Positions 23,058-26,498 of a DNA stretch of 64,000 nucleotides are shown one piece after another. The stretch's first letter is position 1. Each line of letters starts with the position of its first letter. The position numbers and the translations under genes were made by a program. The stretch comes from Pseudanabaena sp. FACHB-2040 (GTDB lineage: Bacteria; Cyanobacteriota; Cyanobacteriia; Phormidesmidales; Phormidesmidaceae): the NCBI RefSeq assembly GCF_014696715.1, contig NZ_JACJQO010000022.1, forward strand, positions 434,001 to 498,000, read 5' to 3'. Below the pieces are notes generated by a model. That model was not told the origin of the DNA and did no database searches. It saw nothing but the letters and a program-made list of their open reading frames with translations.

Positions 23058-23906
23058 TTAACTCAGCCTCATACTCAAATCCAGCCAGGTTGAGCGGGTA
23101 ATTGGCGCACTGCTGGAGATGTAATCTACCCCTGTTTCGGCAACTGCCCGAATAGTCTCAAGCGTAATATTGCCAGATGCCTCAATCTTGACTCGGTCAC
23201 CAGCCCGGCGGATGTGCTGCACAGCTTCCTGCATCTGGGCCAGTGGCATGTTGTCGAGCATGATGATGTCTGCCCCGCCCGCCAGCGCCTCCTCAACCTG
23301 GCCCAAAGATTCGGTTTCGACCTCAATCGTGAGCGGGTAGGGAATGCTGCGACGAATCTGGGCGATGGCGGTCCCGATCCCACCAGCGGCGGCAATATGG
23401 TTGTCTTTGATCATCACTCCGTCGTCAAGACCCAGCCGATGATTTCTGGCTCCACCCACGAGGGTTGCATACTTCTCTAGCAGCCTCAACCCGGGGGTGG
23501 TTTTGCGCGTATCGACCAACTCGGCAGGTAAATCTGCGATCTGGTCTACGTATTTGCGGGTCAGCGTAGCAACACCGCTAAGACGCATCACCAGGTTCAA
23601 AGCGACCCGCTCCCCGGTCAGCAATGCCCCTAACGGCCCTTTGATTTGGGCAATCTCGGTACGACAGGCACAAAAGCTGCCATCACTCACCAAGGGCACA
23701 AACTCCACTTGGCTGTCTAACAGCTGAAAAACCCGCTGAGCCACAGGTAGCCCGGCTACGATTCCCGCCTCCTTAGCTAGCCATAGAGCAGAACCAGGTT
23801 GATTTGCGATCGCACCCAAACCGCCGGTCGTGCGATCGCCTCGCCCAATGTCCTCCCTCAGCCAAGTCTCCAGCATGGGATCTAGCACAATTGCAGGCGG
23901 CAGCAT
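23058..23906 (-). CDS. nadC: Nicotinate-nucleotide pyrophosphorylase (quinolinate phosphoribosyltransferase)
   Basis: NadC converts quinolinate and PRPP to nicotinate mononucleotide in de novo NAD synthesis. The protein is 282 aa. Signatures are LREDIGRGDRTTGG at the N-terminus, LVDTRKTTPGLRLLEKYATLVGG (PRPP/quinolinate site; Arg-Lys-Thr), HRLGLDDGVMIKDNHI, EVETESLGQVEEAL, IMLDNMP and IEASGNITLETIRAVAETGVD. All are as expected for the family. The gene is likely first of a two-gene unit with the UPF0145 gene. Confidence 0.97.
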   Translation of the reverse strand: MLPPAIVLDPMLETWLREDIGRGDRTTGGLGAIANQPGSALWLAKEAGIVAGLPVAQRVFQLLDSQVEFVPLVSDGSFCACRTEIAQIKGPLGALLTGERVALNLVMRLSGVATLTRKYVDQIADLPAELVDTRKTTPGLRLLEKYATLVGGARNHRLGLDDGVMIKDNHIAAAGGIGTAIAQIRRSIPYPLTIEVETESLGQVEEALAGGADIIMLDNMPLAQMQEAVQHIRRAGDRVKIEASGNITLETIRAVAETGVDYISSSAPITRSTWLDLSMRLS

Positions 23907-24098
23907 AGTTCATTTCTCAGGCACACTCCTCTTCCAGCATAGGCAAGGAGAATCAACTGCCGAAGAGGGTACAGCTAAAAAGACCTCATTCAGCCCCCCA
24001 ACCTCAGATCCATATGCTATCTTGATTATTAATGCTGTCGAAGCTCAGCAGAGTGTCTCTTCAGATTCAACCGTTCAGGAATCAAGGAGGTGATGCCC
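23907..24098. other. Intergenic region upstream of nadC and of the phhB leader
   Basis: This 192-bp region separates divergent transcription units. It should contain the nadC promoter on one strand and a promoter for the phhB leader region on the other. The plus strand reads TATGCTATCTTGATTATTAA around 24012-24031, AT-rich and suited to a -10 element, but I cannot assign hexamers firmly. No ORF is supported here. Confidence 0.4.
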
Positions 24099-24312
24099 AT
24101 GCAAGAAAGTAGTAAATGCATGGGTCTTCTGGTTGTAGCTAGCCGGCTGTGCGCCGGGGCTGATCTCTAGGAAGTTAATGCTTATTTCTTCGGAAATAGC
24201 ATCTGCTTTTAAAGCTGACTGATTAGGGTTCCTTCCGGCAGTCAGGCTCAACCTAAGACCCGCTAGACCGCTCCCATCGATGAAGGTAGTACCTTCCCCC
24301 GATGGGAGCGGA
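24096..24312 (+). promoter_or_regulatory. Row of five hairpins upstream of phhB (candidate structured leader RNA)
   Basis: Five local inverted repeats occur in sequence: CCCATGCA/TGCATGGG (24096-24124), CCGGC/GCCGG (about 24143-24157), a UUCG-loop stem TGCTTATTTC/GAAATAGCA with one bulge (24179-24201), CTGACTG/CAGTCAG (24215-24245), and a 12-bp perfect stem CCGCTCCCATCG/CGATGGGAGCGG (24268-24311) with an inner GAAGGTA/TACCTTC stem. The last is followed by ATAGTCTTTTAAAGG and lies 62 bp before phhB. I could not match the set to a known riboswitch, 6S, SRP, tmRNA or RNase P RNA. Confidence 0.5.
24099..24170 (+). CDS. Possible 23-codon leader ORF with perfect Shine-Dalgarno
   Basis: A 23-aa ORF starts MQESSKCMGLL and ends with CAGADL. 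It is preceded by AAGGAGGTGAT at 24084-24094, which matches all 11 bases complementary to the usual 3' end of 16S rRNA, with 4 bases left before the ATG. The start codon lies within the left arm of a hairpin (24096-24124). I do not recognise the peptide. It stops 203 bp before phhB on the same strand. It could be a leader peptide, a microprotein or a chance ORF in a structured RNA. Confidence 0.35.
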   Translation: MQESSKCMGLLVVASRLCAGADL

Positions 24313-24373
24313 TAGTCTTTTAAAGGCTTTTCCTCTAAAGCACGTACTGCATGCCCAATCAAGAGGGTTTTTG

Positions 24374-24655
24374 ATGGCCAAGCCCCTAAGTGAAACCGAA
24401 GTTCAACTGAAGCTCAGCCAGCTGACTGATTGGATCCTTGAAGGCAAAATAATCAAGACCACCCGCACCTTCACAGACTTCGTTGAAGCCGTAAGCTTTG
24501 TCAATCGACTAGTCGAACCAGCCGAAGCGGCAGGGCATCACCCCGACATTGCTATTTCCTACAACCAAGTCACGATTAGCCTCACCACTCACGATGCCGG
24601 TGGCCTAACAGAGCAAGACTTCGCAATGGCCGAGACCCTTTCCAAGCTTGTCTAA
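24374..24655 (+). CDS. phhB: Pterin-4-alpha-carbinolamine dehydratase
   Basis: This 93-aa protein starts MAKPLSETEVQLKLSQL. The family motif EAAGHHPDIAISYNQVTISL (His-His-Pro and surrounding residues) and THDAGGLTEQDFAMA are present. The enzyme dehydrates 4a-hydroxytetrahydropterin; in photosynthetic organisms members also act as RuBisCO assembly-like factors (RAF domain), so the role may not be pterin recycling. The ATG at 24374 starts the conserved region; the open frame from 24302 would begin inside the large hairpin. Confidence 0.92.
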   Translation: MAKPLSETEVQLKLSQLTDWILEGKIIKTTRTFTDFVEAVSFVNRLVEPAEAAGHHPDIAISYNQVTISLTTHDAGGLTEQDFAMAETLSKLV

Positions 24656-24914: not shown

Positions 24915-26498
24915 ATGTCTAAACTTCTTTGGAAATCTTTGCTGGCTGCTCCGGCTGCACTAGGCGCTGCGCTAGCTGTATCAGGTTCCGCTGTAGCTGT
25001 TGAAGCTGCTGCTATTGAGTTCGCTACCGAAACCGCTCCTGTTGAGCTGGCTACTGAAGTAGCTCCCGTTGAGCTGGCTACCGAAGCGGCTCCTGTTCAA
25101 CTCGCTGCTGCTGCTGCACCGGTCGAGTCTGTTGTTGGCGTTGATGCGCTAAATCAGCCCGTTCAACTGGCTCAGATCACCAGCGTTAACCAGCTGACTG
25201 ATGTTCTGCCAACCGACTGGGCTTTCCAAGCGCTGCAGAGCCTGGTTGAGCAGTATGGCTGTATTCAGGGCTACCCTGACCGTACCTATCGCGGTAATGC
25301 GTCCCTGACCCGTTATGAATTTGCTGCTGGTCTAAACGCCTGCTTAGACGTCATCGCCCAGCTAGTAGCTACTGGCATCAACCCCGATGACCTAGCAACC
25401 ATTCGTCGCTTGCAGGAAGAGTTTCAGGCTGAACTGAACACCCTGCGCGGTCGCGTCGATGCTCTGGAAGCTGACGTAGCTGAACTGGAAGCTAACCAGT
25501 TCTCTACCACCACCAAACTGCGTGGTCAAGTCGACTTCCACCTCGCTACCCCCTTCGATACCATTCCTGGCGTTGAAGACAGCACCAACTTCAACTCTCG
25601 AGCTCGTCTAAACTTCGACACCAGCTTCACTGGCGAAGATCGTCTGCGAGTTCGTCTCCAGGCTTCTTCTGGTGATTTGCCTCTGGGCGATATTGGTGGT
25701 TTCAACAACGTTTCTGGTCTGCAGGGCGAAGGCGTCCTTGACCTGCGGGTTGATGACTTCTACTACGCCTTCCCCGTCGGCAACCGCATCGACGTAACCT
25801 TGGCTGCTAACTCCCTGTCCGTTGACGACGTTCTGCGGGAAATCACCCCCTTCGGCAACGGCGTTGCTGATGCTGCTGGTCCTCAGTACCTAGATGCTGG
25901 CATGGGCGGCGGTGCAGGTGTCGGTCTGAGCTTTGCCTTCACTGACAGCATCATCCTTGATGCGCTATACACGGTTAACACTGCTGGTGCTCGTTCCCCC
26001 AGCATCGGTGTCTTCCGGGGTACCAATGAACTGGGTCCAAGCCAAGCCTACGGAGCTCAGCTAAGCTTCATTCCTGAAGGCTTCCTGAGCCTTGCTGCAA
26101 CCTACCTTCACAGTGATGGTGGTCAGGTCTTCCAAGGAGTCGGCACTGGTAAGGCAGTTGACACCTATGGTGGTCAAGTCAACCTGAACTTTGGCGGCTT
26201 CAACATTGGCGGTAGCGCCGGCTTCGTCAACTTTGATGGTGGCGACGACTTCATTTGGAATGCAGGTGTTGTCTTCGATGACTTCTTTGCTGAAGGTGCT
26301 CAGCTGGGTATCTACGGCGGTCAGGCTCCCCAACTGATTGGCTCAGTTGACAACCCCTTCTACATTGAAGGTTTCCTGAACGTTCCCTTCAATGAATTCC
26401 TGACCATTACTCCTTCTGTCATCTATGCTGACTACAACAACGGCCTAGCTGACGAAACCCTGATCTATGGTGTAATCCGCACTACCTTCCGCTTCTAA
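24915..26498 (+). CDS. SLH-domain outer-membrane porin (OprB/iron-uptake-porin type)
   Basis: This 527-aa protein has a signal peptide (MSKLLWKSLLAAPAALGAAL) and then a four-copy 9-residue repeat at about residues 34-69. An S-layer homology domain follows at about 90-150 (DWAFQALQSLVEQYGCIQGY then TRYEFAAGLNACLD), then a short coiled coil (RLQEEFQAELNTLRGRVDAL). A carboxylate-selective-porin-like beta barrel runs to the end and finishes in phenylalanine, as outer-membrane proteins do. It would span the outer membrane and anchor to peptidoglycan through the SLH domain. Codon choice is uniform, as in a highly expressed gene. The start at 24915 is favoured by the signal peptide. Confidence 0.93.
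   Translation: MSKLLWKSLLAAPAALGAALAVSGSAVAVEAAAIEFATETAPVELATEVAPVELATEAAPVQLAAAAAPVESVVGVDALNQPVQLAQITSVNQLTDVLPTDWAFQALQSLVEQYGCIQGYPDRTYRGNASLTRYEFAAGLNACLDVIAQLVATGINPDDLATIRRLQEEFQAELNTLRGRVDALEADVAELEANQFSTTTKLRGQVDFHLATPFDTIPGVEDSTNFNSRARLNFDTSFTGEDRLRVRLQASSGDLPLGDIGGFNNVSGLQGEGVLDLRVDDFYYAFPVGNRIDVTLAANSLSVDDVLREITPFGNGVADAAGPQYLDAGMGGGAGVGLSFAFTDSIILDALYTVNTAGARSPSIGVFRGTNELGPSQAYGAQLSFIPEGFLSLAATYLHSDGGQVFQGVGTGKAVDTYGGQVNLNFGGFNIGGSAGFVNFDGGDDFIWNAGVVFDDFFAEGAQLGIYGGQAPQLIGSVDNPFYIEGFLNVPFNEFLTITPSVIYADYNNGLADETLIYGVIRTTFRF
25014..25121 (+). repeat. Four tandem 27-bp repeats in the porin gene
   Basis: Four consecutive 27-bp units encode IEFATETAP, VELATEVAP, VELATEAAP and VQLAAAAAP just after the signal peptide. 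The units are similar in DNA as well as in protein (GTTGAGCTGGCTAC recurs). This is an Ala/Glu/Pro-rich spacer between the signal and the SLH domain. Confidence 0.85.

Follow-up and report, generated by a model that had tools for sequence, protein, structure and literature searches.

A small RNA gene of Cyanobacteriia, taken to be a Sye_sRNA1 homologue, with a conserved short reading frame

Results

Organization of the locus

The window, a stretch of 64,000 nucleotides from Pseudanabaena sp. FACHB-2040 (contig NZ_JACJQO010000022.1, positions 434,001–498,000), contains between nadC and phhB a structured element of about 300 nucleotides (about 24013–24322, forward strand). The nadC gene (23058–23906, reverse strand; Pfam QRPTase_N and QRPTase_C) lies upstream of the element, is divergent and is outside it. 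The downstream neighbour is phhB (24374–24655, forward strand; Pfam Pterin_4a), and further downstream a gene for a porin of the SLH/OprB type is located (24915–26498, forward strand; Pfam OprB and SLH). A member of the phhB gene cluster is present in 45 of 70 loci with the element, and one of the porin cluster in 46. The 5′ third of the element is made up of a ribosome-binding site and a mini-ORF; these had been described in a sequence-only reading as an 11-base perfect match to the anti-Shine-Dalgarno (anti-SD) end of 16S rRNA, followed after four bases by an ATG that opens a 23-codon frame and lies in the left arm of an 8-bp hairpin. Each of these features was confirmed. The ribosome-binding site AAGGAGGTGAT (24084–24094, forward strand) is the sole perfect match on the two strands of the window; the closest others have one mismatch. 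The anti-SD end itself, TGGATCACCTCCTT, was read from relatives rather than from the 16S rRNA of the genome under study, and occurs in one to three copies in four of five same-family relatives. A GCCC spacer separates the Shine-Dalgarno sequence (SD) from the ATG (24099–24101), and the ORF (24099–24170, forward strand) consists of 23 codons encoding MQESSKCMGLLVVASRLCAGADL and a TAG stop codon (24168–24170). In the hairpin, GCCCATGC (24095–24102) forms eight base pairs with GCATGGGT (24118–24125), with the ATG in the left arm.

The remainder of the element frames the ORF on both sides. A promoter-like extended −10 box, TATGCTATCTT (24013–24023, forward strand), resembles a TGTGYTAYNNT motif present about 45–80 nucleotides upstream of the SD in most loci, and from its position a transcription start site (TSS) is expected at about 24030; the box is missing from the list of a consensus promoter scan. 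Hairpin 1 (GCCCAUGC/GCAUGGGU, 24095–24125, forward strand) carries the start codon in its left arm and a conserved AGUAGUAAA in its loop. The left arm of a long central helix (24122–24162, forward strand) coincides with codons 9–21 of the ORF, and its right arm, UUCCUUCCGGCAGUCAGGCUCAACCUAAGACCC, is formed by residues 24229–24261 of the same strand. Between the two arms, the fold and the aligned copies place a variable apical region (24171–24225, forward strand), which includes a UUCG-capped hairpin. The element ends in a putative terminator hairpin (CUAGACCGCUC...GAGCGGAUAG) followed by a T-run (24262–24322, forward strand); it is absent from the output of a simple terminator scan, and the T-runs of the aligned relatives are longer. 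The same order of parts is found in the aligned copies: a −10-like TGTGYTAYNNT, the SD, the ORF, a variable middle, a conserved 3′ arm, the terminator hairpin and the T-run.

Distribution among cyanobacteria

A DNA search with residues 24060–24330 found one full copy of the element in its own genome. Most of the 97 relatives searched also gave matches, and many of these lie far beyond the family. A sequence profile of the first 98 nucleotides of the element (the 5′ profile) matched 295 of 390 Cyanobacteriia genomes, representing 140 of 159 genera, and matched no listed genome outside this class. Named carriers include Nostoc, Calothrix, Microcoleus, Thermosynechococcus, Nodosilinea and many more. 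With a single exception, each genome matched by the 5′ profile has one copy; genome G095 has two (C112:9665–9862 and C329:422–513). In marine picocyanobacteria, three weak single-copy matches (L130, L131 and L132) have 17-codon ORFs, one of them with a GTG start. A phage or plasmid origin of the element was considered and discarded, the exact 5′ pattern being absent from viral contigs and the element from plasmids. The match of SD and ORF is thus more than chance, since the element is kept throughout the class, with start codon, spacing and frame retained in 169 loci.

The genes around the element change among families, and include psbD, nadC, ileS and others. In 70 loci, the upstream neighbour is nadC in 28 and psbD in 12, and many loci are without phhB, the porin, nadC or psbD. 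A psbD copy is located directly upstream in many families, six such loci having been recorded individually. Downstream, phhB and SLH/OprB porins are frequent, and the linkage persists across families otherwise differing in gene order. In Synechocystis 6803, sll1501 extends into the copy of the element.

No Rfam family matched the element at the gathering threshold, relaxed thresholds giving chance-level scores only, and neither Pfam nor NCBIfam contains a family for the mini-ORF peptide. Two known RNAs were tried and rejected: the 6S RNA family (RF00013) has its match elsewhere in the genome (C22:205737–205922) and none at the element, while for tmRNA an Rfam match is absent and ARAGORN gives only a tRNA-Met in the window.

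Conservation of the reading frame

Start and frame, whose conservation in close relatives bore on the original proposal, are both kept far beyond these. Among the 169 loci compared (allowing only ATG, GTG and TTG as starts, and omitting L105, which has an ATG at a shorter spacing), 165 have ATG as the start codon and four have GTG, with no other codon used. The distance from the first G of GGAGG to the start codon is 13 nucleotides in 164 of them. The 169 ORFs encode 127 distinct peptides, with a class-wide consensus M.(D/E)SSK..G.QV..SRLCAGAVL followed by the stop; 130 are 23 codons long, 21 have 24 codons and 12 have 16 or 17.

In 84 nonredundant colinear copies, only five in-frame stops are present, against 89 (standard deviation 48) in column shuffles, none of 2000 shuffles having as few. 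A stop at codon 24 is shared by 81 of the 84 copies, a count that is partly a selection effect because most of them were chosen as 23-codon ORFs; the exchange of TAA, TAG and TGA at this position is unaffected by that choice. Between the start codon and the GGGTC motif, loop insertions of 3, 6 or 9 nucleotides occur in several families, so that the distance between the two is 23, 26, 29 or 32 nucleotides, in steps of three, with two ambiguous exceptions in which the match is shifted by a G-run. Slippage of AGT repeats may be the source of part of the +3 insertions. From the stop codon to the 3′ arm, the length varies freely, in all three phases.

The amino acid sequence gave less clear results. 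The amino acid similarity of codon changes in the 84 copies was reached by 235 of 2000 column shuffles, and synonymous changes were not enriched (960 of 2000 shuffles); a first, smaller set of 61 sequences had given a similarity equalled by 10 of 300 shuffles, the larger set thus being the weaker one for amino acid selection. At codons 4, 5, 6 and 9 the third base is frozen, a sign of constraint at the RNA level. That the reading frame is under constraint is well supported by these alignments, whereas the same cannot be demonstrated for the peptide sequence, because stops are few and the frame is kept while the amino acid scores are at the level of the shuffles.

In Thermosynechococcus-like genomes (six loci), in S. 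elongatus (L050 and L065) and in marine Synechococcus (L130–L132), the ORF stops at codon 18, at the internal loop of the central helix. Shortening to 17 codons at this loop points to the first 17 codons, or to translation as far as these, as the part of greatest importance. Compensated frameshifts occur in the f33 copies. In L115 and L127, the middle of the ORF is in another frame through compensated frameshifts, with start and stop kept.

RNA fold and covariation

The single-strand fold of the element is better than those of 200 out of 200 shuffled sequences (z-score −4.6). RNAalifold analysis of 41 copies yielded hairpin 1, the central helix and the terminator, and over this whole fold model 97.8% of the cells are paired. 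Two-sided changes were found in 17 of 41 pairs, compared with 9.9 in shuffles, and in 105 cells, compared with 32 (standard deviation 5; none of 500 shuffles as high), scored on the same alignment that yielded the fold model. Sliding the pairing partner abolishes the covariation signal. Per helix, pairs with two-sided changes amount to 8 of 15 in the terminator, 8 of 20 in the three central helices and 1 of 6 in hairpin 1. Hairpin 1, in which 96.3% of the cells are paired, is therefore the least proven helix.

The base of the central helix (GGGUC.. with ..GACCC) was not recovered by the alignment and was scored separately. Native arms pair with a mean of −19.3 kcal/mol, against −14.6 kcal/mol for swapped partners, and in 88 of 99 cases the pairing of the ORF arm is stronger with the 3′ arm of the same copy than with 3′ arms taken from other species. 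The bases GGGU are common to hairpin 1 and to the base of the central helix, which makes hairpin 1 and the long helix mutually exclusive at their base. The 3′ arm also contains a conserved, anti-SD-like CCUYC (24230–24236), complementary to the SD of the element itself, so that a third, SD-hiding pairing is possible. The mean pairing probability of the SD is 0.53 over 88 copies.

Relation to Sye_sRNA1 and other RNAs

One copy of the element, L065, belongs to a genome which we take to be that of S. elongatus PCC 6301. At this locus psbD ends just upstream, and phhB and two porin genes are located downstream. The second porin ORF is at the distance expected from published TSS positions; if this porin is somA, the sRNA would start about 20 nucleotides before the SD. 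These positions are those of Sye_sRNA1, reported by Tan et al. (2018, PMC6091082) as the sRNA of highest abundance in Synechococcus elongatus UTEX 2973. In that paper Sye_sRNA1 is treated as a non-coding sRNA of unknown function with 53 homologues and a conserved fold, runs as a discrete band of about 200 nucleotides on Northern blots, and has its TSS 2714 nucleotides before that of somA (PMC6091082). Homologues are described there downstream of psbD or cobB, among them TU475 in Synechocystis 6803 and TU2045 in 6714, and a very abundant discrete transcript is reported for S. elongatus, Synechocystis and Anabaena (PMC6091082).

We take the element in the window to be a homologue of Sye_sRNA1, on the grounds of synteny and spacing rather than of the published sequence. 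The S. elongatus copy L065 and Sye_sRNA1 are alike in having psbD upstream and a somA-type porin 2.7 kb further on, and the element as a whole shares with Sye_sRNA1 a single stand-alone transcript, a conserved fold and a wide spread among cyanobacteria. By the same synteny and spacing, the TSS of the S. elongatus homologue would lie upstream of the SD, which speaks against a transcript that starts downstream of 24100. They differ in that the published RNA is described as non-coding, whereas the homologue in the window has a 23-codon ORF and a perfect SD; the S. elongatus copy itself has a 17-codon ORF. What the present comparison adds is a kept start codon, spacing, open frame and stop site, as read from aligned genomes, in an RNA already published as an sRNA. 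No translated form of this RNA was found in the literature searched, which included few subscription papers.

Yfr1, Yfr2, Yfr103 and 6S RNA are, like the element, very abundant and widely conserved cyanobacterial RNAs, but the element matches no Rfam family, and Yfr103, weighed as a possible marine counterpart, has seven paralogues in the marine strain CC9605, whereas the element is single-copy. Dual-function sRNAs such as SgrS/SgrT and RNAIII combine an abundant, regulatory-type RNA with a short ORF. The element resembles them in this, with an ORF under reading-frame constraint, and differs in that most of the ORF lies inside a conserved helix; in sequence and host they are unrelated to it.

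Discussion

Across the copies compared, the element is maintained with its own −10-like motif, a covarying terminator and long helix, and an ORF of about 17–24 codons. The reading we favour, and hold to be rather probable, is that of a stand-alone small RNA gene, homologous to Sye_sRNA1, whose ORF is translated, so that the transcript is a small mRNA that also acts as a structured RNA. Retention of the start signal, the start codon and the frame throughout the group makes it probable that the mini-ORF yields, on translation, a peptide of about 23 residues, and that the transcript serves as a small mRNA or a dual-function RNA rather than as a leader of phhB. The sequence-only reading had proposed either a regulated leader peptide or a highly translated microprotein: its translation part is upheld by the kept start and frame, while a role as phhB leader is unsupported, because the element has its own conserved end hairpin, its neighbours vary by family and its homologue is a discrete RNA. 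The changing neighbours were the ground on which the phhB leader was rejected, although some read-through into phhB may occur.

Attenuators of the trp and his type consist of a short ORF with an SD, competing RNA helices and an intrinsic terminator. All these parts are present in the element, and a leader peptide with an attenuator controlling the downstream phhB and porin genes would agree with the frequency at which these genes follow. We nevertheless consider such an attenuator very improbable: the element stays unchanged while its neighbours differ or are missing in many families, so that there is no fixed downstream operon, a run of regulatory codons is absent, the central helix and the terminator stem have no bases in common, leaving the terminator independent of the competing helix, and the Sye_sRNA1 homologue accumulates as a discrete RNA. 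Read-through of abundant sRNAs into genes is known in Synechocystis, where such units are called actuatons (PMC5386190), and is a point in the attenuator's favour. A purely structural or base-pairing non-coding RNA, in which the SD-like AAGGAGGUGAU binds the 30S subunit or an RNA partner and the open frame is a by-product, would account for the strong covariation, for the frozen synonymous bases of codons 4–6 and 9, for synonymous change without excess and for the shortening of the ORF in several lineages, and it matches the published description as an sRNA with a conserved structure (PMC6091082). It gives no reason, however, for starts restricted to ATG and GTG in 169 loci, for the exchange of stop codons at one site, for insertions that keep the frame or for the scarcity of internal stops, and we regard it as rather unlikely.

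A plain mRNA for a functional microprotein, with a helix that only tunes translation or stability, overlaps the favoured reading and is a credible candidate, if on the whole an unlikely one. A perfect SD on a very abundant transcript and the class-wide consensus peptide agree with it; against it, amino acid selection beyond base conservation was not detected in the larger set of 84 copies, residues 18–23 are lost in three groups, and the f33 copies have their frameshifts. A translated RNA in which fold and ORF are both selected is favoured over these because a ribosome coming from the SD would have to open codons 9–21. In such an RNA, a 30S subunit would land on the near-perfect SD, hairpin 1 and the long helix would exclude each other through the shared GGGU, and the elongating ribosome would have to open one arm of the main helix. 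The opened helix would free the 3′ arm (UCCYCCGGCAGUC..AACCUGAAGACCC) for other pairing, and translation would have two effects, production of the peptide of about 23 residues and a change in the fold of the RNA; the switch and a target of the freed arm are put forward as proposals. A translation-gated switch, in which each ribosome opens the helix, the 3′ arm acts on other RNAs and the RNA reports translation capacity, is a tentative extension of the translated small RNA, and one we think doubtful.

The element constitutes an RNA family not represented in Rfam, and its peptide a family not represented in Pfam or NCBIfam. The RNA has been reported as the most abundant sRNA in several cyanobacteria and has for years been without an assigned function. 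Should it prove to be an mRNA, or to have its fold determined by translation, the tests that matter would be ribosome profiling, start-codon mutants and tagged peptides, and existing data sets could be read again at one known position.
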